Below the pieces are notes generated by a model. It saw nothing but the letters and a program-made list of their open reading frames with translations, ran no database searches and was not told the DNA's origin. A DNA stretch of 64,000 bases, from contig NZ_MRCC01000002.1 of NCBI RefSeq assembly GCF_001904655.1, forward strand, positions 124,001 to 188,000. Reading direction: 5' to 3'. This DNA comes from Chroogloeocystis siderophila 5.2 s.c.1 (GTDB lineage Bacteria > Cyanobacteriota > Cyanobacteriia > Cyanobacteriales > Chroococcidiopsidaceae). Of this stretch, positions 6,620-55,229 are shown one piece after another. A program made the position numbers and the translations under genes. The stretch's first letter is position 1; each line of letters starts with the position of its first letter.

Positions 6620-6892
6620 ATGCGATCGCCCCAACAACACTTTAGCGAGCTAGAGGCAATTCTGAAACGCTACGCCGAAGCTTTAGAAGTAGAAATCCGC
6701 ACCTTACAACAGTCTGACGAAACTGCTCAATGGTCAAGTGCTTGGAAGCAAGTTTATAATTGGAACTTTGCTAAAGCGTTTGCACGGCAAAAAGTATTTC
6801 GCAACTGGGCTGCGGATGCTGCTGCGTGGAAACTTCTACCTCAAAGAAACTATCCGAATCAGGGTAATCGTCAAGTAGATTTTGGCGATTAG
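6620..6892 (+). CDS. Small conserved-looking hypothetical protein
   Basis: 90 residues from ATG 6620, preceded by a good ribosome binding site (GGGAGGAA, immediately upstream). The protein is soluble, helical and rich in Trp, Ala and Gln (for example SAWKQVYNWNFAKAFARQK). No motif is recognised. Its stop overlaps the stop of the convergent phosphate permease gene by four bases. The strong start site and codon pattern make it a likely real gene. Confidence 0.65.
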   Translation: MRSPQQHFSELEAILKRYAEALEVEIRTLQQSDETAQWSSAWKQVYNWNFAKAFARQKVFRNWAADAAAWKLLPQRNYPNQGNRQVDFGD

Positions 6893-8145: not shown

Positions 8146-8177
8146 TAATTACAACTCAGTTTTACTATCTCGGTTAT

Positions 8178-22461: not shown

Positions 22462-22501
22462 ACTAAGCCTAGTTGAGTAGATTAAATTATCGTCACGAGC
22501 A

Positions 22502-24376
22502 TTATGCCAAAGGCATTGTAGGTTCCGAATCATCACTTGTTGGATGAACTTTTGCGCGGATGAGAATCGCGGTGATATTGTCGTGACCATTGCAATGATT
22601 TGCTAAATCGATTAAATTAGCAAGACCTTGCTCTAAACTTGCTTCTGACCTGAGCAATGGTTCTAAGTGCGTATGCCAATGATGTTCTAACAAATTATTA
22701 TCCGAAAGACCATCCGAGGTAAGGATCAGTAAGGTATCTTCGTGAAGTTCAAGAAACTGAACATCAGGATTAACATAACTCGCTTCGCGTGGTCCTAAAG
22801 CTTGCGTCAGTTGGTAAGCATCAGGACGTCCATATGCAATCTCAGGTTCTACTCCGCGTAAGATTTCGCGTTGTCCGACTTCATGATCTGTCGTGATTTG
22901 TTCAAGTTCGCGCTGACGCGATAAACGATAGAGGCGACTATCACCGACATGAGCGACGGCAACTTTGGTATTGTGGATCAAAGCCATGACTAGAGTTGTT
23001 CCCATGCGTCCGACACCGGAACGCGCTTCGTGTTGATTGAGTTCATAAATTGCTTGATTGGCTAATTGTACCGCTTCGCGGATTGTAGTTTCCTCCGGTA
23101 GTTTTTCAGGTTCCCAGTGCGTTTCAAAATACTCTTTGATTGCGTGTACCGCGAGTTTGCTTGCAACTTCACCGCCAGCGTGTCCGCCCATACCATCACA
23201 AAGAATATATAACCCACGCGCTTGGAGTTGGTGATCGCTGGGAGTGTCTTGTTTATTAATTGTTGTTGCAATCCCAAAAAAATCCTCATTGTGTTCGCGT
23301 TGGCGACCGACATCCGTACTACCTGCGTCTTCGAGGCTAGATAATGTCATGGGTAACAATACTGTTGGCATATTCTCGGCAGAAATTTGAGTGTCTTTGA
23401 TTTCTGCTAGCGAGTCTTGAACAATGTTTGTCGATTCGCTTTGATCTTGAACTGCGGCGATTGCTTCTAGACGCGATCGCAGTGCATCGATTGTTTGCAG
23501 TTTACTGCTTTGTAACTCGTTGAGAAGTTCAACTATTGCGATAAACTGAGTTTGTTGCGATGCTTGAAATAACTCAAACCAAATCTGTCCTAAATCTTGT
23601 AAAGTAACCTCAGTTTCCTCAGCATACAAGCGTTGTAGTGCCAAAACACCGTCTTCATCGACGCGCAAATTATTGAGTTTTAACAAGCTTTGCCGACATT
23701 GACAAGGTTCGAGTACTACCCAAAGTTGCAGCATCTCGTGCAACCAGTGCAGAATTTGTAGCAAAGAAGTATTGTCTTCTTGCCACAATGCGATCATCGG
23801 TTGCCAATCAGAACGATCCTCAATCAACACAATTTGTCCGCCATCACTTTGCCACGCATCGTAAATCGCAGGTAATGTTTGATGCAGCTGCGCTTGAAGT
23901 GTTAAATAAGTTTGCGCGATCGCTGGAATTTCTGTGACGGTGGCTGCACCCGCGAGGAGGGGTGATACTTGCAATGGTTGACAATCGAGGACGCGCAAGC
24001 AAACTTCGGTTTGATTGACTGATTCGCTTGCGGGCTGTATATCAAGAATTTGATAGCGCTGTTGTTGATCTAAAAATGCCCCAACTGTTAATTGTTGTGG
24101 TGCGAAGTCTGAATCAGCAGTTTTGTCTACAATTGTCACTGCGGTTTGGACTGTTGTCTCAGTAACGGTAGCAGTTGTCAACGGCTGCTGCAATTGTTGT
24201 GCGATCGCGAAGTAGATCTTTCCAGTAAGTGCGTTACACTTTTGGCACCGTTCTTGATTTAATGCCACAGTAGTACCGCACTCTGCACAAAATTTATGCG
24301 TCAGCGAAGTACCGCACTGTTGGCAGAATTTGTTGTTGTTGGGATTCTCAAACTGGCACTGGGGGCAAATTAGCAT
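22502..24376 (-). CDS. PP2C-family protein phosphatase with N-terminal double zinc ribbon
   Basis: 624 residues. Residues 1-50 form a double zinc ribbon (CPQCQFENPNNNKFCQQCG, then CAECG and CQKC). A middle region of about 280 residues has no clear motif but looks like a degenerate pseudokinase-type domain. The C-terminal PP2C domain (about 350-610) has the metal-binding motifs VGRQREHNEDFFG, LYILCDGMGGHAGGEVAS, VAHVGDSRLYRL and LILTSDGLSD. It would remove phosphate from Ser/Thr, probably from substrates of the kinase encoded 40 bases downstream. Confidence 0.92.
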   Translation of the reverse strand: MLICPQCQFENPNNNKFCQQCGTSLTHKFCAECGTTVALNQERCQKCNALTGKIYFAIAQQLQQPLTTATVTETTVQTAVTIVDKTADSDFAPQQLTVGAFLDQQQRYQILDIQPASESVNQTEVCLRVLDCQPLQVSPLLAGAATVTEIPAIAQTYLTLQAQLHQTLPAIYDAWQSDGGQIVLIEDRSDWQPMIALWQEDNTSLLQILHWLHEMLQLWVVLEPCQCRQSLLKLNNLRVDEDGVLALQRLYAEETEVTLQDLGQIWFELFQASQQTQFIAIVELLNELQSSKLQTIDALRSRLEAIAAVQDQSESTNIVQDSLAEIKDTQISAENMPTVLLPMTLSSLEDAGSTDVGRQREHNEDFFGIATTINKQDTPSDHQLQARGLYILCDGMGGHAGGEVASKLAVHAIKEYFETHWEPEKLPEETTIREAVQLANQAIYELNQHEARSGVGRMGTTLVMALIHNTKVAVAHVGDSRLYRLSRQRELEQITTDHEVGQREILRGVEPEIAYGRPDAYQLTQALGPREASYVNPDVQFLELHEDTLLILTSDGLSDNNLLEHHWHTHLEPLLRSEASLEQGLANLIDLANHCNGHDNITAILIRAKVHPTSDDSEPTMPLA

Positions 24377-25384: not shown

Positions 25385-26320
25385 TTACGTGTTTAATATG
25401 TATTTAAATGAGCGTTGACAAACTTCTTTAATGTGCTTCGTTCTAAGAAGAAAATAATTGTTTATTAATTTATAACCCGCTGAAGTTAAATATTTATAGG
25501 CAACAGATTCAAACGTATAAATTTCGCTCTTTGACAAAGATTTTTTCCATCCATCTATGCGATCAGTTATTGCTTCTTGATCAATATTGCTATGTAAATT
25601 GCCATATCGTTCAGGAACTACATATTTTTTGTTTACCTCTAGATTTCCTTGATAAATAACACCTAAAAAATTACATAGTAATCTAACGGTTTCCTCTGGA
25701 GAATTAACTAATTCTTCATAGTATATGGTGGTTGTATCTTTTGGATATTTATTGCTAAGTTTTTTTAGTAGACTCATAGTTGTACACCAGCGCTTTGCTC
25801 CTGTATAAGGATCTGTTTCAAATGGTTTGCCAGTAGCTGAGTATATACTATTTTTTTGCGAGTTAAAAACTCCTCTTCCATCTCGGATAATTCCAATAAA
25901 TTTAGAGTTTGGAAACATTGATTTCATTTTCTCAAATTCTGATAAATAGTAAATATGCTTTAATCCAAATAGTTTGGCTTTTGAAAAGTTCTTTTCTTTG
26001 TAAACTGTACATATAGATAAAATGAAATCTTTTACACTAACTGGTAAACTGGGTTGAATAAATTGAATTATTTCCTCGGCATGAATTTGCCAATCATTAA
26101 ACTTTGCATCTTTATATAAGACCTTAATTATTGTCTGTAAATCTTGCTCGTTTTCTATTAGCTCTTTAGAATAGTTTGTTAAAACAACTTTAATGAAATT
26201 ACTTTCTGGGGGCAAAGCTATGTTGGCAAATTTAACTAGCAAATTTGCCAGCAAAGTAGAGCCAGATCTTGGTTCAAAAACAATAAAGAAAGGACAGTTA
26301 ATTAAATTATCTATGCTCAT
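25385..26320 (-). CDS. Sulfotransferase, polysaccharide cluster
   Basis: 311 residues. The PAPS 5'-phosphosulfate loop is FEPRSGSTLLANLLVKF (about residues 14-30) and the 3'-phosphate site IIRDGRGVFNSQKNS (about 145-160). It moves sulfate from PAPS to a hydroxyl, here most likely on a sugar. It is the last gene of a minus-strand group (30757 to 25385) of transferases and methyltransferases and starts 15 bases after the methyltransferase upstream. Two more sulfotransferases (44077, 54165) lie in the cluster. Substrate is inferred from context. Confidence 0.87.
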   Translation of the reverse strand: MSIDNLINCPFFIVFEPRSGSTLLANLLVKFANIALPPESNFIKVVLTNYSKELIENEQDLQTIIKVLYKDAKFNDWQIHAEEIIQFIQPSLPVSVKDFILSICTVYKEKNFSKAKLFGLKHIYYLSEFEKMKSMFPNSKFIGIIRDGRGVFNSQKNSIYSATGKPFETDPYTGAKRWCTTMSLLKKLSNKYPKDTTTIYYEELVNSPEETVRLLCNFLGVIYQGNLEVNKKYVVPERYGNLHSNIDQEAITDRIDGWKKSLSKSEIYTFESVAYKYLTSAGYKLINNYFLLRTKHIKEVCQRSFKYILNT

Positions 26321-32841: not shown

Positions 32842-35800
32842 CTACGATCGCTCGACTGCTCCCAACGCTTTTAAAGCTGCTTTTTGAGCATCGGTTAAAC
32901 CTTCAATATCAGTAATGTTCATATCTTCGTAAGGTCTAGCAGTTCTTAACGTTTTCTGGCATTCTCCGGTGTTGACGTGCCAAAGCTTGATTGTTTCATC
33001 TTGGCTACTACTTGCGATTAAACCATCAGAACTAAAAGCGATCGCACGCACCCAACTTTTATGTCCTTGTAACGCGTTTAGACATTCACCGGTTTTGACA
33101 TCCCATAGTTTCACACTATGATGATCACCATTCGTTGCTAGTATCTGACCATCGGGACTAAACGCAATTGTCCAAATCGTACTAGTATCTACTTGGAACG
33201 ACTGCAAACATTGACCTGTATGAACATCCCAAACTTTGACGATTCCATCATCACTACCGCTTGCTAAGCTTTGATTATCAGGACTTAAGACAACAACCTT
33301 GATATCACTGGTGTGTTCGCATAAGGTTTGGTAGCACTGTTTAGTAGAAACGTGCCAAAGTCTTATAGTTCGATCTTTGCTACCACTGATGATCACTTGA
33401 CCATCGGAACTTAGCGCAACGGTACGTACCTGGCTAGGATGGTGCATTGTACTCAAGCATTCGCCGGTTGTAGCATCCCACAACTTTACAGTGCAATCAT
33501 CACTACCACTAATAATTGTCGAATTATCGGGATGAAATGCTACCGATCGCACTTGGTTTTGATGTCCATATAAGGTTGTCAGACATTCACCTGTACTCAC
33601 TGACCAAAGTTTTAGTGTTTGGTCGTTACTCGCACTCGCTAATGTTTGACAGTCTGGGCTAAAAGCAACCGATTGTACTCGCCCAGTATGACCTTGCACT
33701 GTTCGGATTTCGCCATCGTGAGGATTCCACAACCTTACAGATGCATCGTTGTTACCACTCGCGATTAACCCATCAGCACTAAAAGCAAGCGATACAGCCC
33801 AATTTGCATATGCGCGTAGCGTTTTAATGCATTCACCAGTACTAAGTTCCCAGATTTTGATCGCTTGGTCATTACTACTACTAGCCAGCGTTTGACCATC
33901 AGGATTGAACGTAACTGCGCGGATTTGCCCTGTGTGTCCTTTGAGTGTTGTCAATTCGCCGGTGCTGAGTGACCAAAGTTTAATGGTGCGATCGCTACTA
34001 CCACTTGCTAATGTTTGACCGTCTGGGCTAAATGCCACCGCTTGAACTTCACTAGTATGTTCGTCTAATGTCTTAAGACATTCACCCGTACTCACCGACC
34101 AAAGTTTAATGGTGCGATCGCTACTACCACTCGCTAAAGTTTGACTATCCGGACTAAACGCCACTGTCAAAATCGCGCTGGTATGCTGGTGTAATGTTGC
34201 CAGACGTCTTTGTGAGCTAATCGACCATAACTCGATTGTGCCAGTGTTGCTACCACTAACGAGAATTTCACCGTTAGGACTAAACGCCAAGGAGGTTATA
34301 TGGCTTGTTCCTCCGCGCCAAGTGGTAATCGATTCGCCAGTATCAGTAGACCATAATTTAATGGTGCCATCACAACTTGCACTTGCAAGCATTTGACTAT
34401 CCGAACTCACCGCAACTGTGCCAACGGGATGACGATGTCCGTGCAAAGATTTAATGCATTGACCAGTATTGACATCACCTAGCTTGACTATGCAATCGCT
34501 AGCACAAACGAGCGTTTGTCCATCTGGACTCAAAGTTGCGATGCGCAACCAAGAATTGTATCCTTTACTCAGGTGCCGTAGCTTCATTTGCGGAACGTGC
34601 CAGATATATGTTGCCCCACTTGTATTGACTGCACTCAAGAATTGTCCATTAGAACTATATGCGATCGCTACAATACTACCAAAATTCGCCAAAAAGACTG
34701 ATTTATCTAAATCTGATGATGCCAAGTTCACCTGATGTAAATCGCCATCAAGACGCGCTTGCCAGATTTTGAGGTGTGAAAAGTCATAGCCTTTAAGATC
34801 GACCTGCATATGGCGAAGGAGATTCAAAATATTACCACTGGCATAACCAGGTTGCAGTGGGGATCGTTGCAAGTTCTTGATAATTTTGTTGAGGTGATTA
34901 GCAATACTCTTGCGACTTCCCATATCAGCAAAAAGCTGATTAACTATCGGTTGCAGGATGTAGCGTGTTTGTGCATTTCTAATATACTCTTTAGCAGAAG
35001 CCTTGACTAAAGCGTGACTTTTGAAAAGCGCTAATTCTTGTGTTTTCAATTCTAAACAGATTTGCTTAATAAAACGGTCGGTGACGTATTCAGCGATCGC
35101 CGGTTGCTGCGTAAACAGTCCTGACGTTTTTTCAATCAGCGCGCGTTGCCGCAGCGACTCTAAAGCCTCGGCTAATTCTAACGGGTGTACTTCTTGGAGA
35201 ATATCTTCGGCTAATTCTCGCAATGACACTGGTTCGCGGTTAATTGCTAACCAGTACATAATACCTTGCTCCATCTGTGAGAGACACTCAAAATCTTGAT
35301 CGAATAGATTTTTAATATTGCTAAAGACTGTTTTCCCTGATTTTAAGAATTCTGTAATATCGCGATCAAAAACATCTTGAACAATCGGAGCAACCATCTT
35401 TAGTAATAGAGGGTTACCACCATAAATATTCATAATTTTTGCATAGATTTCCCTCGTTCCATGTAATTGGCTATCTTTTAAAATTTGCTGTCCTTCTTCT
35501 AGATTTAAGCCACTTAGTTGTAAGCTTTTTAAGCGATGTTCGCCTTCTTTAAGATAAAAATCTCTTGGCTTCTCGCGGCTAGTTAACAATAAACAACTTT
35601 GATGCGCTGTTTCGCCTATGCACCGAATCAACTGCGAGTAGCCTTCGTATTCTCGGTGAAATTGTTCCTGATCTCGATGACGTAGAATCGCATCTAAACC
35701 ATCTAGAATAAGTAGACAGCGATGTTTGCGTAGATAATCAAGTAGGCGTAGCGATCGCAAACTAATATTTTCTGGTAGATCAATCTCTGTGTTTTGTGAA

Positions 35801-36387
35801 AGAAAGTAGATGAGTTCTGCCAAAATATCTTTAATTGGCGGAGCTTGGTCTAAAGAGCGCCAGATAACGTACTCAAAGTTGTTTTGAATCTGTTGAGCTA
35901 ATTTAACTGATAAGGCTGTTTTCCCAATACCTGCCATGCCTAAAATAGTGACGACACGACAGCGATCGCTGACAATCCATTGCTCTAATACAACCATCTC
36001 TTGGGTACGACCATAGAAGATTGCGACATCAGCTGCTTCTCCCCAATCCCTGCAAGTGTCAGTAATTTTTTTCGTTGGAGGCAGTGTCGATTTTGCTTCT
36101 TCTAGTTTTCGTTGCAGAGCAGTGCGAAAATTCTTTTTACTAACTTTTTCCCCTAAAGCATCAGAGAGAATTTTCCATAATCTAGGTCCAACATCGCGTT
36201 TCAAGTAGTTATCGCTGTATCCTTCTTTGTCAGCAATTTCTTCATAGGTATAACCTAGCCACGCACCTTTAAGAATAATTTTTTGAATATCTGTTAAGTA
36301 ACTACCTTTTACAGCATAAACAGCATTGTCTGCGGCTTTAAATTCTTCTTTTTTATCTAAATCTAAGTCAGATTCCGAATAGTTCAT
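32842..36387 (-). CDS. STAND NTPase regulator: HTH, NB-ARC and 14 WD40 repeats
   Basis: 1181 residues. Residues 28-95 form a helix-turn-helix-like domain (LTDIQKIILKGAWLGYTYEE, IADKEGYSDNYLKRDVGPRL) of the kind found at the N terminus of cyanobacterial signalling NTPases. The NB-ARC region follows, with Walker A GMAGIGKTA at 150-158 and Walker B LLILDGLDAIL. From about 560 there are 14 WD40 units (IKLWS, VKLWD, IRLWH), enough for two seven-bladed propellers, ending in LTDAQKAALKALGAVE. Such proteins oligomerise on ligand binding; the HTH makes a transcriptional role likely. It sits inside the polysaccharide cluster, recalling XssQ, the STAND activator of synechan synthesis. That comparison is by domain type only. 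Confidence 0.93.
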   Translation of the reverse strand: MNYSESDLDLDKKEEFKAADNAVYAVKGSYLTDIQKIILKGAWLGYTYEEIADKEGYSDNYLKRDVGPRLWKILSDALGEKVSKKNFRTALQRKLEEAKSTLPPTKKITDTCRDWGEAADVAIFYGRTQEMVVLEQWIVSDRCRVVTILGMAGIGKTALSVKLAQQIQNNFEYVIWRSLDQAPPIKDILAELIYFLSQNTEIDLPENISLRSLRLLDYLRKHRCLLILDGLDAILRHRDQEQFHREYEGYSQLIRCIGETAHQSCLLLTSREKPRDFYLKEGEHRLKSLQLSGLNLEEGQQILKDSQLHGTREIYAKIMNIYGGNPLLLKMVAPIVQDVFDRDITEFLKSGKTVFSNIKNLFDQDFECLSQMEQGIMYWLAINREPVSLRELAEDILQEVHPLELAEALESLRQRALIEKTSGLFTQQPAIAEYVTDRFIKQICLELKTQELALFKSHALVKASAKEYIRNAQTRYILQPIVNQLFADMGSRKSIANHLNKIIKNLQRSPLQPGYASGNILNLLRHMQVDLKGYDFSHLKIWQARLDGDLHQVNLASSDLDKSVFLANFGSIVAIAYSSNGQFLSAVNTSGATYIWHVPQMKLRHLSKGYNSWLRIATLSPDGQTLVCASDCIVKLGDVNTGQCIKSLHGHRHPVGTVAVSSDSQMLASASCDGTIKLWSTDTGESITTWRGGTSHITSLAFSPNGEILVSGSNTGTIELWSISSQRRLATLHQHTSAILTVAFSPDSQTLASGSSDRTIKLWSVSTGECLKTLDEHTSEVQAVAFSPDGQTLASGSSDRTIKLWSLSTGELTTLKGHTGQIRAVTFNPDGQTLASSSNDQAIKIWELSTGECIKTLRAYANWAVSLAFSADGLIASGNNDASVRLWNPHDGEIRTVQGHTGRVQSVAFSPDCQTLASASNDQTLKLWSVSTGECLTTLYGHQNQVRSVAFHPDNSTIISGSDDCTVKLWDATTGECLSTMHHPSQVRTVALSSDGQVIISGSKDRTIRLWHVSTKQCYQTLCEHTSDIKVVVLSPDNQSLASGSDDGIVKVWDVHTGQCLQSFQVDTSTIWTIAFSPDGQILATNGDHHSVKLWDVKTGECLNALQGHKSWVRAIAFSSDGLIASSSQDETIKLWHVNTGECQKTLRTARPYEDMNITDIEGLTDAQKAALKALGAVERS

Positions 36388-36840: not shown

Positions 36841-37230
36841 ATGTATCCCCCATATTCAGAAAATAAAGCTATGACTAATGGTTACGGACGACACAATCCT
36901 GATGCAACCAGTCGCCCTACCTTTTACATGTCAGAAGAATTACTAAGAGCTATCCAAATTCAAGCACAGCGCGAACGCAATTCTCGGTCTGGATTTATAT
37001 CTGGTTTGTTAAGTTTTCTGCTTCTATCACCCATTGGTCAACAATTACGAGAAAATGCTCGTATTAATAACCGCACTTTGGCTCAAGAGTTAGAGCAATC
37101 TTTAGCTTTACTACAACAACAGATACCCCTTGACCAAGTCAACCAGCTTGCTGCTGCAAGCCAGCGATCGCAAATAGAAATGCTTACTTATTTAGTTTTA
37201 CTAGGATTACAAACATATTCCAGAGAGTAA
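36841..37230 (+). CDS. Ribbon-helix-helix-like small protein, possible regulator
   Basis: 129 residues. After a disordered start, SRPTFYMSEELLRAIQIQAQ RERNSRS resembles the strand and first helix of ribbon-helix-helix DNA-binding proteins, followed by a hydrophobic helix (GFISGLLSFLLLSPIGQQL). A Gln-rich helical part ends the protein. ATG 36841 and ATG 36871 are both possible starts. It is divergent from the STAND regulator across a 453-base gap in which I see no other gene, and faces the main biosynthetic genes. Regulation of the cluster is a guess from position. Confidence 0.65.
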   Translation: MYPPYSENKAMTNGYGRHNPDATSRPTFYMSEELLRAIQIQAQRERNSRSGFISGLLSFLLLSPIGQQLRENARINNRTLAQELEQSLALLQQQIPLDQVNQLAAASQRSQIEMLTYLVLLGLQTYSRE

Positions 37231-38694: not shown

Positions 38695-39138
38695 ATGAAA
38701 GTTATACTCGTTTGCTCTACTGGGGGACATTTTCAGGCAATGCAAAACTTATATCCTTTTTGGAGAAATCATCAGCGGATCTGGGTGACGTTTTATAGTG
38801 AGAATACCAAAGCAACTCTAGATGCAGAAACAGTGTATTGGGCGTGGAGTCCTACAAATCGCAATTTAGTCAATTTGGTACGCAATGTTTTTTTAGCCTG
38901 GCAAGTTCTTTCTCAGGAGACACCACATTTAGTTATTTCTACAGGTGCAGGAGTAGCAGTACCTTTTTTGATTTTAGCAAAGCTGTTAGGTAGTCAAACA
39001 GTTTTTATCGAGTCTATTACACGAGTAAAGCAATTGAGCTTATCTGCTAGATTAGCTTTACCATTTCTAGATACTTTATATGTACATTGGCCACAATTGC
39101 AAGCACGGTATCCAAGAGCAGAAATAATAAGTTCTTGA
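38695..39138 (+). CDS. PssD/Alg14-like glycosyltransferase subunit
   Basis: 147 residues: VILVCSTGGHFQAMQNLYPF at the N terminus, VISTGAGVAVPFLILAKLLG and ESITRVKQLSLSARL. This is the membrane-anchored partner of a split UDP-sugar transferase (Alg13/Alg14, PssE/PssD), which adds the second sugar to a lipid carrier. The catalytic partner follows after 30 bases. It is the first gene of the plus-strand operon that runs to 54066. Confidence 0.9.
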   Translation: MKVILVCSTGGHFQAMQNLYPFWRNHQRIWVTFYSENTKATLDAETVYWAWSPTNRNLVNLVRNVFLAWQVLSQETPHLVISTGAGVAVPFLILAKLLGSQTVFIESITRVKQLSLSARLALPFLDTLYVHWPQLQARYPRAEIISS

Positions 39139-39168
39139 GTAGGAATTTCTCCTTTCATATCTACTACT

Positions 39169-39633
39169 ATGATTCTTGTCACCGTTGGTACTGAACAATT
39201 TCCTTTTAACCGCTTAATGTCATGGATTCAAGTCATGACCAAGCGTGGGTTTATATCTGAAGAAGTTGTAGTTCAGTATGGTAGTTCTACTACTGTACCT
39301 ACTGGAGTTAAGAGTTATCCTTTGCTAGCACCAGAACAGTTTCAGGCGCTTACGAAACAAGCCCGTATAATTATAGGACATTGCGGAGAAGGTACTATTC
39401 TTCTCTTATCTGCTACTGCTAAACCATATATTTTAGTGCCTCGAAGCCAAAAGTTTAAAGAACATATTGACGATCATCAAATTGAGCTAGCAGAAGCTCT
39501 TGCTCAATTCAATGTTCCTATTGCTTGGTCTCCAGGTGATTTAGTAAGATTTTTAGCTTTACCTCGAATAGTTCCTGTAACACTCATTTCAGCTACAACT
39601 ATTTGTGCTCGTCTGCATGACCGTTTTAAATAA
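39169..39633 (+). CDS. PssE/Alg13-like glycosyltransferase catalytic subunit
   Basis: 154 residues: ILVTVGTEQFPFNRLMSWIQ, VVQYGSSTTVPTG and the donor site IIIGHCGEGTILLLSATAKP with LVPRSQKFKEHIDDHQIELA. It supplies the nucleotide-sugar-binding half of the split enzyme with the 38695 protein. Together they probably transfer a sugar onto the product of the initiating transferase encoded next. Confidence 0.91.
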   Translation: MILVTVGTEQFPFNRLMSWIQVMTKRGFISEEVVVQYGSSTTVPTGVKSYPLLAPEQFQALTKQARIIIGHCGEGTILLLSATAKPYILVPRSQKFKEHIDDHQIELAEALAQFNVPIAWSPGDLVRFLALPRIVPVTLISATTICARLHDRFK

Positions 39634-39709
39634 TGAAAAAGCTATATTTAGCCAAACAAATAGTGAGTTTTTCAGATTGAATTAAACTAAACTTTTTAAG
39701 GAAATATCT

Positions 39710-40705
39710 ATGGTTTTAGAAACACCTCTATTAAGTAAAGATGTGCATTTATCAATTTTGAATAAGGTTCCTTTAGTTCAGCTACCTGTCAACTTAAATT
39801 TAGCTTGTGCTGTCAATTTAGAAAAAGTGTTTCAACACCTTTTGCTGCATACCCCAAAACATATTATCCTTGACTGTAGCCAAACCACCTTTATTGATAG
39901 TAGTGGTATAGGCTTACTAATTCAAATTCTCCAGAAAGCTCAATACCAAAATACTAATATAATAATTTGGAGTATTGACTCACACATTAAGACAGCGTTA
40001 ATTGCTGCTGGAATTCAACCAATATTTTTTGATACTGAAAGTAATGCTATTTCCTTAATTGAGCGCAAAAAGATAAAAAATCCGCTAGTAAAGGTTCATC
40101 TGTCAGTTAATTCTAGGCTTAAAAGAGCAATAGATATCATAGGAGCAATAGTTGGCTTAGGGGTAGTATTAGCTCTATTCATACCTATCGCGATCGCGAT
40201 CAAACTTGATAGCCCTGGTCCTATTTTTTTTAGTCAAACCCGCTGTGGTTTACTAGGAAGACGTTTTCGCATCTGGAAATTCCGGTCGATGGTTGTCAAT
40301 GCTGAAGATTTGAAAAAGCAAGTTGAAAATCAAGTCAAAGGTCCTTTTTTTAAAAGCAAAAGTGATCCAAGGATTACGCGGGTTGGTAATTTTTTGAGGC
40401 GAACAAGCTTAGATGAAATTCCTCAGTTTTGGAATGTTCTTAAAGGAGATATGAGTTTGGTAGGCACTCGACCTCCTACCTGTGACGAAGTAGATCAATA
40501 TACTGTGCAGATGTGGCAGCGTCTTAATGTTAAACCAGGTATCACTGGTCAATGGCAAACTAATGGTCGTTCAGAAATCTGTGATTTTAATGACGTATTA
40601 GAACTAGATTTAGATTATCAAAAAAAATGGAGTATTCTCTATGACATTAAGCTGATATTGAAAACATTATTAGTTGTTTTTCAAGAGAAAAGTAGTGCTA
40701 TGTAG
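39710..40705 (+). CDS. STAS domain-sugar phosphate transferase fusion (initiating phosphoglycosyl transferase)
   Basis: 331 residues. Residues about 10-115 form a STAS (anti-sigma antagonist-like) domain: HIILDCSQTTFIDSSGIGLL carries the conserved Asp-Ser-Ser-Gly with a phosphorylatable Ser. From about 134 begins a monotopic phosphoglycosyl transferase: KRAIDIIGAIVGLGVVLALF membrane helix, IFFSQTRCGLLGRRFRIWKF, catalytic Asp-Glu in RTSLDEIPQFWNVLKGDMSL, and VGTRPPTCDEVDQY. The enzyme puts a sugar phosphate on undecaprenyl phosphate and starts repeat-unit synthesis. The STAS domain replaces the usual N-terminal membrane region and could make initiation switchable by a kinase/phosphatase. Confidence 0.93.
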   Translation: MVLETPLLSKDVHLSILNKVPLVQLPVNLNLACAVNLEKVFQHLLLHTPKHIILDCSQTTFIDSSGIGLLIQILQKAQYQNTNIIIWSIDSHIKTALIAAGIQPIFFDTESNAISLIERKKIKNPLVKVHLSVNSRLKRAIDIIGAIVGLGVVLALFIPIAIAIKLDSPGPIFFSQTRCGLLGRRFRIWKFRSMVVNAEDLKKQVENQVKGPFFKSKSDPRITRVGNFLRRTSLDEIPQFWNVLKGDMSLVGTRPPTCDEVDQYTVQMWQRLNVKPGITGQWQTNGRSEICDFNDVLELDLDYQKKWSILYDIKLILKTLLVVFQEKSSAM

Positions 40706-40767: not shown

Positions 40768-41814
40768 ATGCCAAAAGTATCAGTTATCATTCCAGTTTAT
40801 AATGTTGAAAAGTTTATTGCTGCTACAGTATCTTCAGTGCTAGCGCAAACTTATACAGACTTTGAACTTCTAATCGTTGATGATGAATCTCCGGATCAGA
40901 GTATAAAAATTTGTCAACAGTTTAGAGACTCCAGAATTAAAATTATTCATCAGAAAAATCGGGGTTTAGCTGGAGCAAGAAACACTGGTATTTATCATGC
41001 ACAAGGAGAATATCTAGCTTTTTTAGATGGAGACGATTTATGGTTGCCAGAAAAGTTAGAACAACATGTGAGCCATTTAGAGAATTCTCCTTCTGTTGGA
41101 GTAAGCTTTAGCTGCTCTGTCTTTATAGATGAAACAGGGCAGTATTTAGGTGTTTATCAAATTCCTAAGAAGCTACAAGGAATTACACCATCATATATCC
41201 TTTGCCGTAACCCGATTGGAAATGGCTCTGCACCTGTCATCCGAAAACAAGTGTTTGAAGCAATTAAGTTTTTTAAGCAGCAAGGCGATCAAGGAGAAAG
41301 TTGTTATTTTGATCCTCAATGCCGACGTTCAGAGGATGTTGAATGTTGGCTACGTATTGCAGTTCAAACCTTCTGGCAATTTGAAGGGATTCCAGAAGCT
41401 TTAACGTTATATAGAATCAATTCCTCTGGGTTGTCAGCGAATTGGGTAGAACAGTTTAAGTCTTGGCAACAAGCCATTGAAAAAATACGTACTTTTGCCC
41501 CAGAGTTAATTTCTCAATGGGAAAAGCCCGCTAAAGCCTACCAATTGCGTTACTTGGCACGTAGAGCCATCACCCTGCGATCGCCATCCATAGCAGTAAA
41601 GCTAATTAATCATTCTGTGGCTACGTACTGGCGTATTTTATTCGAGGAACCACGCCGAACACTCCTCACTTTGGCAGCAGCCTATTTTCTTTTCCTGTTC
41701 CCAGATTTTATTTATAACTCCACAGAAACTATAGCTTTAAAACTAATCAAAATTACACATAAATGGTATTTCTTTAAGCAAGAATCATTTGTAAAAACGT
41801 CAATTTCAAGCTAA
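40768..41814 (+). CDS. Family 2 glycosyltransferase, A
   Basis: 348 residues. GT-A core: VSVIIPVYNVEKFIAATVSS, LIVDDESPDQ, and the metal-binding DGDDLW; base region RRSEDVECWLRIAVQTFW. The C-terminal part ends in a hydrophobic segment (LLTLAAAYFLFLFPDFIYN) that may anchor it. It is closely related to the gene at 42913 over its whole length, including SANWVEQFKSWQQAIEK. Probably cytoplasmic at the inner membrane; sugar unknown. Confidence 0.93.
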   Translation: MPKVSVIIPVYNVEKFIAATVSSVLAQTYTDFELLIVDDESPDQSIKICQQFRDSRIKIIHQKNRGLAGARNTGIYHAQGEYLAFLDGDDLWLPEKLEQHVSHLENSPSVGVSFSCSVFIDETGQYLGVYQIPKKLQGITPSYILCRNPIGNGSAPVIRKQVFEAIKFFKQQGDQGESCYFDPQCRRSEDVECWLRIAVQTFWQFEGIPEALTLYRINSSGLSANWVEQFKSWQQAIEKIRTFAPELISQWEKPAKAYQLRYLARRAITLRSPSIAVKLINHSVATYWRILFEEPRRTLLTLAAAYFLFLFPDFIYNSTETIALKLIKITHKWYFFKQESFVKTSISS

Positions 41815-41859: not shown

Positions 41860-42837
41860 ATGCCTAAACTATCCGTTATTATTCCTGTTTATAATGGCGA
41901 AAAAACTATACTAAAAACTGTTGAATCGGTTCAAAAGCAAACATTTTTTAATTTTGAACTGATTGTCATTAACGACGGTTCAACAGATTCTACATTAGAG
42001 CTACTAGCCCACCTACGCGAACCACGCATGAAAGTGTTGTCCTATGAAAACGGTGGATTGCCTGTAGCCCGAAATCGAGGTATCGCCAATGCAACAGGGG
42101 AATTTATTACATTTATTGATGCTGACGACTTATGGACGCCTAATAAATTAGAGTTGCAATTAGCTGTTTTACAACAGCATCCAGATGCTGATGCAGTTTA
42201 TAGCTGGACACTGTATTTAAACGAAGAAGGTACAGCTTTTCATCAAGGAGAGCAACTGTATTTTCAGGGCAATGTTTTACCTCAATTGTTGTTGAGTAAT
42301 TTTATTGCGAGTGGTTCTAATATAATGATACGCAAACAGGCGATCGCATCCGTAGGATACTTCGATCCAACATTACGCTCTTGCGAAGATTGGGATTATT
42401 GGCTACGTTTAGCCGCTCACTGTGCTTTTGTTGTCGTACCTAAGTATCAAATTATTTATCGCCAATCTACCACTGCCATGTCATCTAAAGTTGAAGTCAT
42501 GGAAAAACATCTTTTGATTGTTCATGAACGTGGATTTCGCCTAGCGACTTCAGAATTACAATTTCTGAAGAATCAGAGTTTAGCCAATATCTATGAGTTT
42601 TTAGCTCACTTATGCTTGAATTACATTTCCGGCACTAATGGAGCTAAACAAGCATATCAAAAACTTCGGCAAGCAATTGTTTTACAGCCTTCACTATTGT
42701 TAACAAAAAAAACACAAGTACTACTCATGAAAATTGGCTTAATACTGCTATTCTCGCCAAAGCTTTCTGAAAGAATATTACAGGAAGTTAAGACACTTCG
42801 AGCTAAAAATCTTGAATCCATTAACACCTACTCATAG
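41860..42837 (+). CDS. Family 2 glycosyltransferase, B
   Basis: 325 residues: LSVIIPVYNGEKTILKTVES, VINDGSTDSTLELL, ITFIDADDLWTPNKLELQL, and CEDWDYWLRLAAHCAFVVVP. It lacks the C-terminal shape of its two neighbours and belongs to another subgroup. It lies 45 bases after gene A on the same strand. Donor and acceptor are unknown. Confidence 0.93.
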   Translation: MPKLSVIIPVYNGEKTILKTVESVQKQTFFNFELIVINDGSTDSTLELLAHLREPRMKVLSYENGGLPVARNRGIANATGEFITFIDADDLWTPNKLELQLAVLQQHPDADAVYSWTLYLNEEGTAFHQGEQLYFQGNVLPQLLLSNFIASGSNIMIRKQAIASVGYFDPTLRSCEDWDYWLRLAAHCAFVVVPKYQIIYRQSTTAMSSKVEVMEKHLLIVHERGFRLATSELQFLKNQSLANIYEFLAHLCLNYISGTNGAKQAYQKLRQAIVLQPSLLLTKKTQVLLMKIGLILLFSPKLSERILQEVKTLRAKNLESINTYS

Positions 42838-42912
42838 CTTAAGTTTATCCATATTCCTTCCAAGCAATATATGACGGTGAATACTTAATGGATATTTAAC
42901 AGCGAGTTGCAA

Positions 42913-43935
42913 ATGAAAAAAATTTCAGTAATCATTCCGGTTTATCAAGTAGAAAAGTATATAGAAAAAACAATAACTTCTGTTTTTACACAAACTTATC
43001 AGAATTTTGAAGTTATCGTTGTTGATGATGGTTCGCGCGATCGCACTCAAGAAATTTGCCAGCAGTTCACAGACAAGCGAGTTAAAATTATTAGTCAAGA
43101 AAATGGAGGTCCATCTAAAGCCCTTAATACTGGTATTCGTTATGCTCAAGGAGAGTATCTAGCTTTTCTTGACGGCGATGATCTGTGGCTACCAGAAAAG
43201 CTTGCTAAGCACATTGCTCACTTAGAAAGCTCTTTAGATGTTGGAGTTAGCTTCAGTCGATCAGCATTCATTAATGAAACTGGGCAACTTTTAGGGAGCT
43301 ATCAAACGCCAAAACTCAAAAATATTACGGTGTCCGACTTACTATGTAGTAACCCTCTTGGCAATGGATCATCCGCAGTATTTCGCCGCGAAACACTAGA
43401 AGCAATTAAATTTAAAAGCAATTTCGCTAATTCCTTAGAAAACTGTTATTTCGAGGAACGTAACCGCGCATCGCAAGATAATGAAATTTTACTGCGGATC
43501 GGACTTTTAACGTCTTGGAAAATTGAAGGCATATCTGAAGTGCTTACTCTCTATCGGGTGAAACCTGGGGGAATTTCTGCTAATTTCTTGCGAACTGTTG
43601 AAGTTTGGGATGAAGTTCTTGCGCGATCGCGCCATCTTGCACCAGAAATCATTGCTAAATGGGAAAAGAAATCTAAGGCATATCAACTGAGAATAACAGC
43701 ACGTACAGCAGTTCGGATGCAATCAGGTGCTGTAGCTGTGCAATTATTAAACAAATCCTTGCTAACTTACTGGCGCATACTTATTGAGGAGCCGCAACGT
43801 ATGTTTTTAACATATATAGCTGCCTATTCACTCTGGCTCCTACCGTTGCCATTAAATCGCCTGCTAGAAAAGCTGGTTTTACAACGAATCAAAGTTACTC
43901 AAAATCCTATACTTCAAGATTATCCAGGTCGCTAG
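42913..43935 (+). CDS. Family 2 glycosyltransferase, C (paralogue of A)
   Basis: 340 residues from ATG 42913; a TTG two codons upstream is also in frame. Motifs: ISVIIPVYQVEKYIEKTITS, VVDDGSRDRTQE, LAFLDGDDLWLPEKLAKHI, RASQDNEILLRIGLLTSW. It resembles gene A throughout (GNGSSAVFRR versus GNGSAPVIRK; TYWRILIEEPQR versus TYWRILFEEPRR). A and C therefore arose by duplication with B between them, and may transfer similar sugars to different positions. Confidence 0.93.
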   Translation: MKKISVIIPVYQVEKYIEKTITSVFTQTYQNFEVIVVDDGSRDRTQEICQQFTDKRVKIISQENGGPSKALNTGIRYAQGEYLAFLDGDDLWLPEKLAKHIAHLESSLDVGVSFSRSAFINETGQLLGSYQTPKLKNITVSDLLCSNPLGNGSSAVFRRETLEAIKFKSNFANSLENCYFEERNRASQDNEILLRIGLLTSWKIEGISEVLTLYRVKPGGISANFLRTVEVWDEVLARSRHLAPEIIAKWEKKSKAYQLRITARTAVRMQSGAVAVQLLNKSLLTYWRILIEEPQRMFLTYIAAYSLWLLPLPLNRLLEKLVLQRIKVTQNPILQDYPGR

Positions 43936-44076
43936 CGCATTAGATCCATTGTTTAAATTTCCACAAACTAGTTAAGCTATAAACCCAGACTGATCCTAAA
44001 TCTAAGATACCTTGCTTAAAGCTTTGAGCTAATACCATAACTTAATTTGTTATTCCTGCACAATATAGTGTTCATT

Positions 44077-45024
44077 ATGCAAGTCAATAAAATTAAAGTA
44101 CTTTATATCGCTGGCTATTCATTTAGTGGCAGTACTATCCTTGCTAATATCTTAGGAGAAATTGAAAGTTTCTTTTCAGCGGGAGAATTACGTTGTATTT
44201 GGGAGGAAAATTTAATAAAGAACTTTCGATGTGGATGTGGAAGTAGATTCCATGACTGTAGTTTTTGGCAAGAAGTTTTTAATAAATATCCTGGAGGTAT
44301 GCAGCACATTAATGCTCAAGAAATAGTAGGGTTGCAAGAGAAACGCAAGCATTTCCCTTTCATGCTGCTTCCTGGAAATAAACAAGTATTAAAACCAAGG
44401 TTTAAAAAATATTTGTCAAGTATTGAGAAACTATATCAAGCAATTCAGTCAACTACTGGCAGTAAAGTTATCGTTGATTCTTCCAAATCTCCTTTATATA
44501 GTTACACGCTTAGTATGCTGCCGACAATTGATTTATATATTGTTCATCTCGTTCGCGATCCTCGTGCGGTGCAGTATTCATGTATAAAACGCAAACTGCG
44601 TAAAAAACATCGTTGGGAAGAGCATAGTATTGTTGAGGGTTGTCTTACTTGGAATGCTTGCAACTCAGCAGTAGAGTTATTTTGGCGTTCCTCTCTAAAT
44701 CACTACCTAAGATTGCACTATGAAGATTTTATCCAAAGACCAAAAGTAGCTTTACAACAGATTCTTCAGTTAGTTCAGGAGGATGTAACACAATTACCTA
44801 TCAAAGGAAAAAATATAGTAAATCTTACAACTAATCACACAGCAATAGGAAACAATAATCGGTTCAACGCTGGAGCTACTCAGCTTAAAATAGATGAACA
44901 ATGGAAAGAAAAAATGAGTGTCGAAGATCGGCAAATTGTGACTAATTTAACATTGCCTTGGCTTTTATATTATGGTTATTTAAATAAAAATAAATTCACT
45001 TCAAATTACCTTAAAATCACCTAA
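44077..45024 (+). CDS. Sulfotransferase, polysaccharide cluster
   Basis: 315 residues from ATG 44077; the frame is open from a TTG at 44047. The PAPS loop is IAGYSFSGSTILANILGE and the 3'-phosphate site VHLVRDPRAVQYSCIKR. A Cys-rich stretch (RCGCGSRFHDCSFW) follows the loop, as in a subgroup of bacterial sulfotransferases. It is transcribed with the glycosyltransferases on either side, so the acceptor is most likely the polysaccharide or its lipid-linked repeat unit. Confidence 0.88.
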   Translation: MQVNKIKVLYIAGYSFSGSTILANILGEIESFFSAGELRCIWEENLIKNFRCGCGSRFHDCSFWQEVFNKYPGGMQHINAQEIVGLQEKRKHFPFMLLPGNKQVLKPRFKKYLSSIEKLYQAIQSTTGSKVIVDSSKSPLYSYTLSMLPTIDLYIVHLVRDPRAVQYSCIKRKLRKKHRWEEHSIVEGCLTWNACNSAVELFWRSSLNHYLRLHYEDFIQRPKVALQQILQLVQEDVTQLPIKGKNIVNLTTNHTAIGNNNRFNAGATQLKIDEQWKEKMSVEDRQIVTNLTLPWLLYYGYLNKNKFTSNYLKIT

Positions 45025-46349: not shown

Positions 46350-48221
46350 TTGAATAAAGCTGTGCGCCTCAAACCAACATTATTGAGTTACAGGCTACTG
46401 AAAGCTACGAGATTCTGGAGAAATAACCACCTTATTCTCCGTCAGTTTAAACACTTCCGCCTCGTTGCGATCGCTGCCATTGCATTTTCTTTACTTGCAG
46501 CAGTCTTTGAAGGAGTTACAATTGGTCTAATCTCGCTGTTTCTATCGAACTTTGCCGAGCCAGATAATCTTGCCAATATTCAAACAAAAATTCGCTGGGT
46601 AGACACTTTATTTTTAAGTGGAACTTTATCACCATTGAATAGGCTTTACCGAGTGACTGCTTTGATTTTTCTGGCTGTGTGGCTACGTTCTAGTTTCATT
46701 TATTTGGGAAACTATTATACTAGCCTTTCTGAAATTAATTTGACATATCGCTTACGCAAACAATTATTTGAACAGCTACACAGCCTGAGTCTAAGCTTTT
46801 TTGCTAAAAAGCGCCTTGGCGAGCTACTAAATAGCCTTCACAATGAAGTCAATCAAATTCGTTTAGCGTGTAATGTTGCCTCTATTTTTATCGCTAAAGG
46901 ATTCACCTTAGTAGTATATGTAGCATCGATGTTTTGGTTGTCTTGGCAGCTAACTATTATTTCACTTTTAATGTTTATTTTATTAGCTACAGGTTTAGCG
47001 ACACTACGAAGACAGGTAAGGCAAGCTAGTTTTGAAAATGTCCAAGCATCGCAAAAATTTACATCAATTTCAACAGAGTTTATCAGTGGTATACGTACTG
47101 TAAAAGCATTTTCATCACTTGAGTATGAACGCAAGCGCTTTTATACTGCTCTTGATGAATTATTTAACGCAAATTCTAAAGCAAAAGTAGCTGCTTCAGT
47201 AGTACAGCCTCTAACAGAAGGAGTTTCTACAACTGTCTTATTAATTATTTTAGCTGTCGCAGTTACACTTTCTTTTTCGGATCGAGATTTTCAGCTTGCC
47301 TCAATATTAACCTTTGTTTTTATATTATTACGTTTAGCACCCGTCGTTGCACATTTAAACGGGGCTTGGTCAAGATTTACAAGTTTTCAGGGTTCATTGG
47401 CAAATATTAAAGAACTTCTAAGAACTGATGATAAAACTTATTTACAAGATGGTCATATTCAGTTTAATGGACTTAAAAAAGCTATCGATTTTAAAGCAGT
47501 GGATTTCGGTTATAATCCTCAAAACTTAGTGTTGCAAAATATTACACTAACAATCAAAAAGGGACAGACGACTGCGTTAGTTGGTGCTTCTGGTGCAGGT
47601 AAAAGTACGCTGGCAGACTTGATTCCGCGCTTTTACGATCCAATTTACGGCAAGATTTTAATTGACGGCGTTGAGTTGCAGAAATTTAAAATGAATTCGC
47701 TACGACGCAAAATGGCAATCGTGAGCCAGGATACATTCATTTTTAATACTTCTGTACGGGAAAATATTACGTATGGTACAGAGAATGTCGATGAAGCAGC
47801 TGTTTGGGAGGCGGCACGACATGCGAATGCTTTGGAATTTATTCTCAAGCTCCCTGACGGCTTAGATACGAGGCTAGGAGATCGCGGAGTGTTACTGTCT
47901 GGAGGTCAGCGCCAACGAATTGCGATCGCGCGTGCTTTGTTGCGTAATCCAGAAATCCTTATTCTCGATGAAGCAACGAGTGCGTTAGATTCAGTTTCCG
48001 AAAGATTAATTCAAGAATCGTTAGAAAAGCTTTCACTTGGACGTACTGTGATTGCGATCGCACATCGTCTTTCTACTATTGTCAAAGCTGATTCTGTAGT
48101 AGTGCTTGAACAAGGTAGAATTGTGGAACAAGGAGGCTATCAAGAACTTTTAGAAAAACGAGGTAAACTGTGGAATTACCATCAGCTTCAGTACGACTTT
48201 AGTAAAACAAAACTTGATTAA
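46350..48221 (+). CDS. ABC exporter, MsbA/PglK type (transmembrane plus ATPase)
   Basis: 623 residues from TTG 46350; no ATG is available before the first helix. The membrane domain (about 35-330) has six segments; the ATPase has Walker A VGASGAGKST, signature LLSGGQRQRIAIARALL, Walker B ILILDEATSALDS and the His switch AIAHRLST. The family moves lipids, peptides or lipid-linked oligosaccharides (MsbA, PglK) across the inner membrane. No Wzx-type flippase is visible in the cluster, so this exporter may flip the lipid-linked repeat unit. Confidence 0.92.
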   Translation: MNKAVRLKPTLLSYRLLKATRFWRNNHLILRQFKHFRLVAIAAIAFSLLAAVFEGVTIGLISLFLSNFAEPDNLANIQTKIRWVDTLFLSGTLSPLNRLYRVTALIFLAVWLRSSFIYLGNYYTSLSEINLTYRLRKQLFEQLHSLSLSFFAKKRLGELLNSLHNEVNQIRLACNVASIFIAKGFTLVVYVASMFWLSWQLTIISLLMFILLATGLATLRRQVRQASFENVQASQKFTSISTEFISGIRTVKAFSSLEYERKRFYTALDELFNANSKAKVAASVVQPLTEGVSTTVLLIILAVAVTLSFSDRDFQLASILTFVFILLRLAPVVAHLNGAWSRFTSFQGSLANIKELLRTDDKTYLQDGHIQFNGLKKAIDFKAVDFGYNPQNLVLQNITLTIKKGQTTALVGASGAGKSTLADLIPRFYDPIYGKILIDGVELQKFKMNSLRRKMAIVSQDTFIFNTSVRENITYGTENVDEAAVWEAARHANALEFILKLPDGLDTRLGDRGVLLSGGQRQRIAIARALLRNPEILILDEATSALDSVSERLIQESLEKLSLGRTVIAIAHRLSTIVKADSVVVLEQGRIVEQGGYQELLEKRGKLWNYHQLQYDFSKTKLD

Positions 48222-51967: not shown

Positions 51968-53236
51968 ATGAAACCTTGTAATTTTGAAGAGAAAGTCATT
52001 TGGTATTCTATTCTGGGTACTTACGGGTTCTATTTTACTGGCTTACTTTACTACGTTCCACCCGCGATCGCTTGGATACTCGCTTGTTATCTGATTAAAA
52101 AGGCGTGGCTGCAAAAAGACAACGCATTTGAAACTGGTAAGATCGCTATCCCTTGGGAAGTTTGGGTATGGATTATTGCAATGGCAGCGATAGAATTTGC
52201 CACTATTTTTGGTCATGCCGATTTCAATTTGGGAAGAGCAAGTCTCATAAAAGCTACGTTCGGTTGGGCTAAAGGATGGGCACTTCTAGCCATATTTCCT
52301 CTCATTGGTTGCCTAAGTATTAGACCAAAGTTAGTGTGCCGTGCAGTTTGTCTATTATGTCTTCAATCCCTCATTTATCTTACTTTTTGCTATGTAGCAT
52401 CATTAGTTAGTCTCAATATTTCTTATACTGCTCCCCTCAACTTTTTTGGTGGAGCAAGGTTAGGTTTTTTCGTAACTTTTTATACCATTGAAAATGGTTG
52501 GCTTCGCCTTCCTTTATTTGCCCCATGGGCTACTGTTGTTGGGTTTGTTGGCAATGTATTTTTACCTTTATGTCTTTTAGAAAAAAATCGACGACTGCGA
52601 TGGATTGGAATTGTTACCTCAATTTTAATGTGCTGGTTTTCTGGTTCTAGAGTCAATATGTTAGCTTTACCTACAGCTTGGATCGCTACTCAGATTTTGT
52701 CTAGTTTTCAGCGCCCATTTCTTTGGCTAACAGCTGGTTTTTCCAGTTTAGTTACTGGATTATTAGCACCAAGTTTAATTAATGCGATCGCATCATTTAA
52801 AGATTGGATGCGGAGTTTACGTGCCAATTCTAACAGCGATCGCGAAGCTTTAGACAGAATTGCTATCCGACGTTGGGCAGAAGCCCCAATTACTGGTCAT
52901 GGTGTTACCGATTCAGGTCCTAGTAGAATTGTAGATGTTAATATTGGCACTCATAATAATTGGACTGGTTTACTATTTATTAATGGGATTGTTGGTGTTT
53001 TAGCTCTTGGCGTGTCTTTATCATGTAGCTTTATAAGCTTAGTTGTTCGTTCCCAAGAAAGCCAAACGGCTAAAAGTGCCCTTCAGATTCTTCTAATTAT
53101 ATTTTGCAATACGTTTGTTGATAGCCTCAACATGACTGCCTATCTCGTAGCTCCTGGTTTAATTTTTCTTGGTACTGTCTTTCGGGAACCTTTACTGAAA
53201 CAGGAAAAGAGATTGGTATTACCAATTTCTAGTTAA
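51968..53236 (+). CDS. O-antigen ligase/polymerase-like membrane protein (Wzy/WaaL type)
   Basis: 422 residues with about ten membrane segments. The conserved loop and following motif GHGVTDSGPSRIVDVN, NIGTHNNWTGLLFINGIVG (including the key His of the family) and SGSRVNMLALP are present. The fold joins lipid-linked repeat units into chains (Wzy) or ligates them to an acceptor. Next to the co-polymerase gene, Wzy-type polymerisation of the exopolysaccharide is the likely role. Confidence 0.88.
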   Translation: MKPCNFEEKVIWYSILGTYGFYFTGLLYYVPPAIAWILACYLIKKAWLQKDNAFETGKIAIPWEVWVWIIAMAAIEFATIFGHADFNLGRASLIKATFGWAKGWALLAIFPLIGCLSIRPKLVCRAVCLLCLQSLIYLTFCYVASLVSLNISYTAPLNFFGGARLGFFVTFYTIENGWLRLPLFAPWATVVGFVGNVFLPLCLLEKNRRLRWIGIVTSILMCWFSGSRVNMLALPTAWIATQILSSFQRPFLWLTAGFSSLVTGLLAPSLINAIASFKDWMRSLRANSNSDREALDRIAIRRWAEAPITGHGVTDSGPSRIVDVNIGTHNNWTGLLFINGIVGVLALGVSLSCSFISLVVRSQESQTAKSALQILLIIFCNTFVDSLNMTAYLVAPGLIFLGTVFREPLLKQEKRLVLPISS

Positions 53237-54164: not shown

Positions 54165-55229
54165 TTAGCTAATCACTAAACGTAATCGCCGCCAAACATA
54201 TTGAGGTATATTATTAATTCTATTTGTATTAGCTAATAAAGCTCGTGATCCAGCAAAAGGTAAAGTTATCCATAGCCAAAGAATTAGAAGAAATGGAAGA
54301 CGAACTGGCTGTTTTGTATAGCCTGCTTTTAGCAACTGCTGTCCACAGCAAAATTGAAAAATTGCAACTTCTGCATCACTAAGTTTTTCTTGCCAGCGAT
54401 ATGCTGGTTCACTAGACAAACCAGAACCATTACTCCAAGAGTTTGAGTACGAGCTATTTACTAAACCAACTGTATGCATCGAGGGTTCATAATCTAAAGA
54501 TAGCCAGTTTGTTAAGGATTTAAGCGATGACTCAGGACAGGTAACTAAGTTTTCAAATTGCTGAATGTAAACACGGCTTTCCCCAAATTGAGCACGTGCC
54601 TTGAGTGCTGCATTAAGAGCCGCTTTCCAAATTAAACTAATAATTATCAAATTATACGAGTTCTTTATTCTTCGTTTTTCTGTAAGTGACTTGCTACTAC
54701 TATCAGATCTCCATTGACTCTTCCAAAAGTCACGATAGGAAGCAATGACGCCTCCTGGGTTACGAACCATACAAATAACTTTTGCATCAGGATAGCGGTT
54801 TAAAATTTCAGCTATTTTAAAGATATGTCTTGGTGTTTTTTCTCCAAATATAGTTTTGTTTTTGTTCTGAGCGCAAAGCTGGCAATATGCCTCAAAATAC
54901 GAATCTGTTCCACAGCCTATTTGCTGAGCTAAAGAACGTAACTTCATACGATCCATCCAACCTTGCTCCGGATCTCCTTTTGCTTCATATGCCTTATGGG
55001 TTAGAGCAAGAAAGTAATCTTCAGTAACTTGTATCTCTTGAGAAGATAATGGTTTTTGCTCTCGTCCAGACATTTTGACACGTAAATCATCAAAATAATG
55101 AGTTTCTTTAGAGATGTAAACGTTTGAATGTTTGCTAAGAATTTGCCTCATTAAAGTTGTGCCAGAACGAGATGTTCCAACGATGAATATCATGGTCTTT
55201 TTTGGTGCTTCATTTTTACTTTTTTCCAT
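54165..55229 (-). CDS. Sulfotransferase, polysaccharide cluster
   Basis: 354 residues: PAPS loop FIVGTSRSGTTLMRQILSK at the N terminus, 3'-phosphate site VICMVRNPGGVIASYRDFWK, and a C-terminal hydrophobic segment (FLLILWLWITLPFAGSRAL) that may tether it to the membrane. It is the third sulfotransferase of the cluster and differs from the other two in length and C terminus, so it likely acts on a different position or acceptor. A 264-base AT-rich gap lies upstream. Confidence 0.88.
   Translation of the reverse strand: MEKSKNEAPKKTMIFIVGTSRSGTTLMRQILSKHSNVYISKETHYFDDLRVKMSGREQKPLSSQEIQVTEDYFLALTHKAYEAKGDPEQGWMDRMKLRSLAQQIGCGTDSYFEAYCQLCAQNKNKTIFGEKTPRHIFKIAEILNRYPDAKVICMVRNPGGVIASYRDFWKSQWRSDSSSKSLTEKRRIKNSYNLIIISLIWKAALNAALKARAQFGESRVYIQQFENLVTCPESSLKSLTNWLSLDYEPSMHTVGLVNSSYSNSWSNGSGLSSEPAYRWQEKLSDAEVAIFQFCCGQQLLKAGYTKQPVRLPFLLILWLWITLPFAGSRALLANTNRINNIPQYVWRRLRLVIS

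Follow-up and report, generated by a model that had tools for sequence, protein, structure and literature searches.

We found that the open reading frame at positions 39710-40705 (+) of the window, the 64,000-nucleotide stretch of DNA analysed here, encodes an initiating sugar transferase fused in one frame to an N-terminal STAS domain. The same fusion is widespread in Cyanobacteriia, and a gene for an RsbW-type kinase lies a short way downstream of it in 72 of 130 loci. Read from sequence at the level of the family, the STAS domain is probably a phospho-switch of the RsbV/SpoIIAA type, and since this switch is attached to the enzyme, the enzyme itself would be the output of a partner-switching system.

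The 331-residue product was assigned by Pfam, by full-length relatives and by its predicted structure. Pfam placed a STAS domain at residues 38-110 (PF01740; 41.5 bits with the cut-off at 22.6, E 1.2e-10) and a Bac_transf domain at residues 138-325 (PF02397, E 1.4e-66, 223.9 bits against a cut-off of 27). An AlphaFold model built on an alignment of 72 fusions reached a mean pLDDT of 86.8 and a pTM of 0.81, with both folds predicted with confidence. The STAS part, residues 9-115 (39734-40054, +), was recognized in a PDB profile search and superposed with VIA-align on solved TM1442, RsbV and SpoIIAA at Z 13-14 over about 100 residues, which bears out the STAS fold that an earlier note had read from the letters. 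The C-terminal part, residues 130-326, aligned with WbaP at Z 19.0 (157 residues, rmsd 2.1) and with PglC at Z 18.5 (178 residues, rmsd 3.0). Asp235 and Glu236 (40412-40417, +), both present in 68 of 68 fusions found by profile, presumably form the catalytic dyad, a role that we take from work on PglC. By its domain, dyad and PglC/WbaP fold the protein is a monotopic phosphoglycosyl transferase (PGT), with sugar-phosphate transfer as its predicted activity and a catalytic core at residues 135-326 (40112-40687, +). It scores 285.4 bits against NCBIfam TIGR03025, under the cut-off of 295.55. The earlier note had also proposed that the STAS domain replaces the usual membrane domain, and this was half right. 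In sequence and model, the N-terminal four-helix transmembrane bundle and cytoplasmic DUF of the large monotopic PGTs (WbaP/WcaJ/EpsZ type) are absent and residues 9-115 are STAS instead, but the core keeps a long membrane helix at residues 136-167, which in the model is the re-entrant helix of the monotopic PGT class. A chance STAS match was ruled out by the profile, fold and family evidence, and a gene-prediction artefact by the presence of fusions 97-59% identical to this one in five genomes.

The candidate phospho-acceptor of the STAS domain is Ser64 (39899-39901, +), which lies in the motif IDSSGIG and is the first residue of helix 64-79 in the model. In the profile alignment of the PDB search it pairs with the first serine of the SpoIIAA motif MDSSGLG, which we take to be the phosphorylated Ser58. 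By its fold and by this serine at the start of the helix that follows the DSSG turn, the N-terminal domain is a STAS domain of the anti-sigma-antagonist type. Loss of the serine in most orthologues would have spoken against a switch, and it was not seen. Ser64 and Asp63 were both present in 68 of 68 fusions found by profile rather than by motif, a count that leans on fusions still resembling the search profile. In the diverse 72-row alignment Ser64 was kept in 72/72 and Asp63 in 71/72, and Ser64 and Gly68 were the only invariant STAS columns at a mean pairwise identity (1500 sampled pairs) of 38% for STAS and 71% for the PGT. Position 65 is Met or Thr in single members. An earlier count of 98/98 distinct fusions with the serine is not our main evidence, since 63 of them were collected with two search patterns, one of which already included SSG.

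The survey for the same fusion in other cyanobacteria that the earlier note had suggested returned it in many genomes. Within the window's family it occurs in 6 of 19 genomes, the five relatives being 97%, 82%, 74%, 59% and 59% identical to the window's copy. Across Cyanobacteriia, 244 of 388 genomes contain a match to the STAS profile at E 1e-9; many of the matching frames are 330-380 residues long, and some may be lone STAS proteins. All 68 loci taken from this profile search translate as STAS followed by PGT. They comprise the 30 best STAS-profile loci minus the window's own (set B, 29) and 39 loci hand-picked among the matches listed, by open-frame length and spread of genera (set D), and since neither set is a random draw the result of 68/68 is partly built in. 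A pattern scan supplied a further set of named loci (set C), in which 64 of 70 hold the fusion; non-cyanobacterial loci from that scan (L133, L135 and L136) proved to be lone STAS frames with no fusion. On a 112-row tree (FastTree or quick tree) the fused and unfused states of the transferase require three changes.

Clustering of the genes around 64 named fusions pointed to a candidate partner. A family of about 163 residues was present in 39 of these loci, in 36 of them on the strand of the fusion; the centre distances had a median of +0.8 kb, and three copies lay about 3 kb upstream. Pfam identified the family as HATPase_c_2 (78.4 bits), and a profile of the linked kinase matches RsbW and SpoIIAB in the PDB. 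Over all sets, 72 of the 130 fusions have such a kinase at a distance of up to 1.2 kb, always downstream and in 71 of the 72 on the same strand. By set the counts were 18/29 for the best profile loci, 39/62 for the named loci and 15/39 for the hand-picked loci. Sets B and D overlap partly with set C, and L037 and L068 (second copies of the window's own locus and of L013) as well as L195 were dropped before counting. Removal of fusions more than 97% identical to one another left 64/117, and the two profile-found sets gave 33/68 loci and 14 of 21 families. In contrast, only 1 of 61 unfused transferases had the kinase within 1.2 kb (Fisher 6e-15, uncorrected for kinship), and that one, L060, is an 86-residue frame adjoining a fused frame. 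Of the 61 controls, 30 come from the window's family, in which the fusions have no linked kinase either, 29 come from the class and all lack the kinase, and 2 have other origins. In 37 of the 54 pairs on one strand, fusion and kinase are no more than 100 bp apart, and 16 pairs overlap, with start codons chosen mechanically; a small open frame separates the two genes in some loci. For the remaining 58 of the 130 no kinase gene lies in this range, some of them being on contigs that end nearby, and linkage changes at least nine times on a tree of 85 fusions (FastTree or quick tree).

Other parts of a partner-switching system were found near a minority of fusions. Of 101 loci, 21 have a lone STAS gene at a distance of up to 6 kb, and 18 have a SpoIIE phosphatase gene, searched with one profile, in the same range. 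The phosphatases examined carry a receiver domain in L087 and L158 and PAS/GAF domains in L118. Full sets of fusion, kinase, STAS and SpoIIE with receiver occur for example in L211, L213 and L158 (the last by Pfam), and in L213 the set is followed by a hybrid histidine kinase. With sensor, phosphatase, STAS, kinase and STAS-PGT together, an apparent whole chain is thus present in some loci. In 54 loci the STAS and kinase distances covary beyond those of the PGT (partial r 0.64, a value reached in none of 500 permutations), and the PGT and kinase distances given STAS yield a partial r of 0.20. The former correlation may only reflect that STAS tracks divergence better than the slow PGT. Co-occurrence at the level of genomes proves little because the kinase is near universal: the family is present in 304 of 388 genomes and is common also where the fusion is absent, and of 146 genomes with the fusion STAS profile at E ≤1e-15, compared by eye, 145 have it, the exception being G082.

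The fusion gene sits among genes for polysaccharide synthesis. Immediately upstream lie genes for an Alg14-like subunit (38695-39138, +; PF08660, 64.8 bits) and an Alg13-like subunit of the Glyco_tran_28_C type (39169-39633, +; PF04101, 53.5 bits), which together are predicted to form a second glycosyltransferase. Three GT2 glycosyltransferase genes follow (40768-41814, 41860-42837 and 42907-43935, all +), each matching the GT2 cluster profile and the first also PF00535. In L179, positions 6397-8616, Pfam finds the order Alg13-Alg14-STAS-PGT in one frame of some 720 residues. Since the same parts stand side by side at 38695-40705 in the window, the Alg pair and the fusion likely act as one unit. 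Frames of 713-741 residues in family f37 resemble the L179 fusion by frame length only. Sulfotransferase-family genes were recognized by Pfam at 25385-26320 (-) and 44047-45024 (+) and by eye at 54165-55229 (-). A Wzy_C gene lies at 51968-53236 and an ABC transporter at 46350-48221, and from this gene content a sulfated polymer is probable. In this region a sugar-modifying enzyme and a sensor domain also seem to be fused at 57325-58683 (-), the second case of its kind: the product is hexapeptide acyltransferase-like and carries a GAF domain at its C terminus. Also in the window are genes for a 1181-residue WD40-repeat protein (32842-36387, -) and a 129-residue protein with no Pfam match (36841-37230, +), and in G011, G012 and G014 (L197-L199) genes of like size are similarly placed by Alg14-Alg13-STAS-PGT, a comparison of size only. 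Two adjacent type IV pilin-like genes (16622-17131 and 17324-17839) have very similar N termini by eye.

From these parts we propose the following mechanism. The fusion protein would start the repeat unit of an exopolysaccharide, probably a sulfated one, by transferring a sugar-phosphate to polyprenyl phosphate, and the Alg14/Alg13-like pair would probably add the second sugar. The kinase would bind the unphosphorylated STAS domain and phosphorylate Ser64, and either its binding or the phosphorylation would turn initiation off. A SpoIIE phosphatase, driven by its sensor, would reverse the phosphorylation and free initiation, so that the free, dephosphorylated form is the active one. A lone STAS protein would compete for the kinase. 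The sign of this switch is taken by analogy only from the STAS proteins SypA and HmpV, for which activity in the dephosphorylated state is reported or suggested (PMC8256260, PMC10120452).

If the STAS domain were a structural or docking module, serving dimerization or holding Alg13/Alg14 at the membrane, Ser64 would be kept for the fold and not for phosphorylation. Large PGTs are indeed dimeric with extra N-terminal domains (PMC12802240), the single Alg13-Alg14-STAS-PGT frame of L179 demonstrates spatial coupling, and Ser64 is retained also in fusions that have no linked kinase. A purely structural role would not, however, readily account for an invariant serine and a nearly invariant Asp63 at the known phospho-site of a domain that has otherwise diverged so far, nor for kinase linkage that follows the fused and not the unfused transferases, and we regard it as unlikely. 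Somewhat less likely still is that the arrow points the other way, so that the PGT-tethered STAS domain takes up the RsbW-type kinase and so signals polymer initiation to some target, such as a sigma factor, while the enzyme itself is not switched. In the classic anti-anti-sigma logic a STAS protein takes up an RsbW-type kinase and the output of SpoIIAA/SpoIIAB and RsbV/RsbW is a sigma factor, and such a report would match it. ECF-sigma-like genes do lie near four kinase-less fusions (L173, L177, L183 and L184), all of family f30, where they may mark another partner. In 124 loci with 1976 genes, a set that includes the window and seven other stretches of its genome, these four were nevertheless the only sigma-like ones; the queries were ten sigma proteins of the window's genome, by which divergent ones could be missed. 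Among the linked genes of 59 kinase-bearing loci the same ten queries found none. Direct control of the transferase remains our preferred reading for the family.

The partner-switching control put forward in the earlier note is supported for the family, with its STAS fold, invariant serine and linked kinases, but not by linkage in the window's own lineage: none of the six fusions of the window's family, and none of the eight tree rows of its subclade, has a linked kinase. The partner that the note had offered, a PP2C/kinase pair at 21268-24376, fares poorly. The pair shares the window with the fusion, at a distance of 15 kb, and its PP2C gives a sub-threshold SpoIIE match (22.5 bits against 25), but Pfam identifies an FHA/Hanks-type kinase and a zinc-ribbon PP2C instead of RsbW and SpoIIE types, and the kinase that adjoins the fusion elsewhere is of the HATPase_c_2 family. 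That this pair switches the STAS domain is very improbable. In this genome a kinase of the RsbW type would have to act in trans. An unlinked trio of STAS, SpoIIE-receiver and kinase genes is present on another contig (C10:159055-161296) and matches the profiles of the linked sets with 149 bits for the kinase, 588 for the phosphatase and 154 for the STAS protein. Its kinase has Ala in place of the G1-box Asp (IWAYG for IWDxG), a key residue of the ATP site that is also lost in the kinases of five related genomes, and owing to this loss it may bind without phosphorylating. In the window's family, RsbW-type kinases whose G1-box Asp is replaced by Ala, Ser or Gly (L203:8890-9327 and its relatives L217-L222) lie beside a SpoIIE phosphatase gene and are possible binding-only kinases. 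Two other genomes with the fusion are poor in this family: in G014 no member was found at E 1e-5, and G007 has only a weak match of 30 bits. The switch could therefore be a relic in this lineage, its kinase gone or dead and the enzyme constitutive, a reading that overlaps with our main one at the family level. The missing linkage in 6/6 fusions, the lost G1 Asp of the trio kinase and a Lys at position 63 in one family member (L013) agree with it. Against it, Ser64 is kept in all six fusions although their STAS identity to the window's falls to 35%, and another HATPase_c_2 gene of the same genome, C15:107734, does have the DxG motif. We think a relic doubtful, though less so than any of the other alternatives.

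Parts of this picture have precedents, and the earlier note overstated its case in calling such control not generally described. The fusion type has been published: All4160 of Anabaena sp. PCC 7120 is described as a glycosyltransferase that has a STAS domain at its N terminus (PMC8256260), and all4160 is named as one of the genes required for heterocyst envelope polysaccharide (PMC4390870). As described there it has the same architecture as the window's fusion, and the passages of the two papers that deal with it do not mention a partner-switching role. Direct action on an initiating PGT is documented by EpsW/EpsZ of Myxococcus xanthus and by the phosphorylation of CapM (PMC12802240), but EpsW is a receiver-domain protein that acts in trans on a large PGT, with neither a STAS domain nor a serine kinase. 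The Rsb-like Hmp system (HmpU/V/W) of Nostoc punctiforme controls hormogonium development, motility and polysaccharide with a STAS protein as its output (PMC6495340, PMC8256260), and in Vibrio fischeri the polysaccharide-locus STAS protein SypA is active when unphosphorylated and is controlled by the serine kinase SypE (PMC10120452, PMC8256260). HmpV and SypA are, in these accounts, lone STAS proteins with unknown targets, whereas in the fusion the STAS domain belongs to the same polypeptide as the PGT, the first enzyme of polysaccharide synthesis. The fusion and its linked kinase share the STAS fold, serine site and kinase family of SpoIIAA/SpoIIAB and RsbV/RsbW (PDB 1th8, 1til, 6m36), but there the output is a sigma factor and here it would be an enzyme. 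In the open-licence literature we found no description of a linked RsbW/SpoIIE module around a STAS-PGT. The STAS-PGT architecture and direct control of PGTs are thus known, and the neighbourhood with the linked kinase is the new result here.

By a narrow margin we favour the broader view that cyanobacteria widely use the RsbW-type kinase, SpoIIE phosphatase and STAS system with an initiating PGT as its direct output, through a covalently attached STAS domain. Initiation sets the share of the polyprenyl carrier that each surface polymer receives, and little is known of its post-translational control. Since the kinase gene lies close behind the enzyme in more than half of the fusions examined, such control is directly testable in laboratory cyanobacteria. 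The STAS-PGT is a concrete candidate for the kind of target on which HmpV and SypA act, and if the proposal is true, this natural fusion would point to the first sugar transferase or its complex as the missing target of both.
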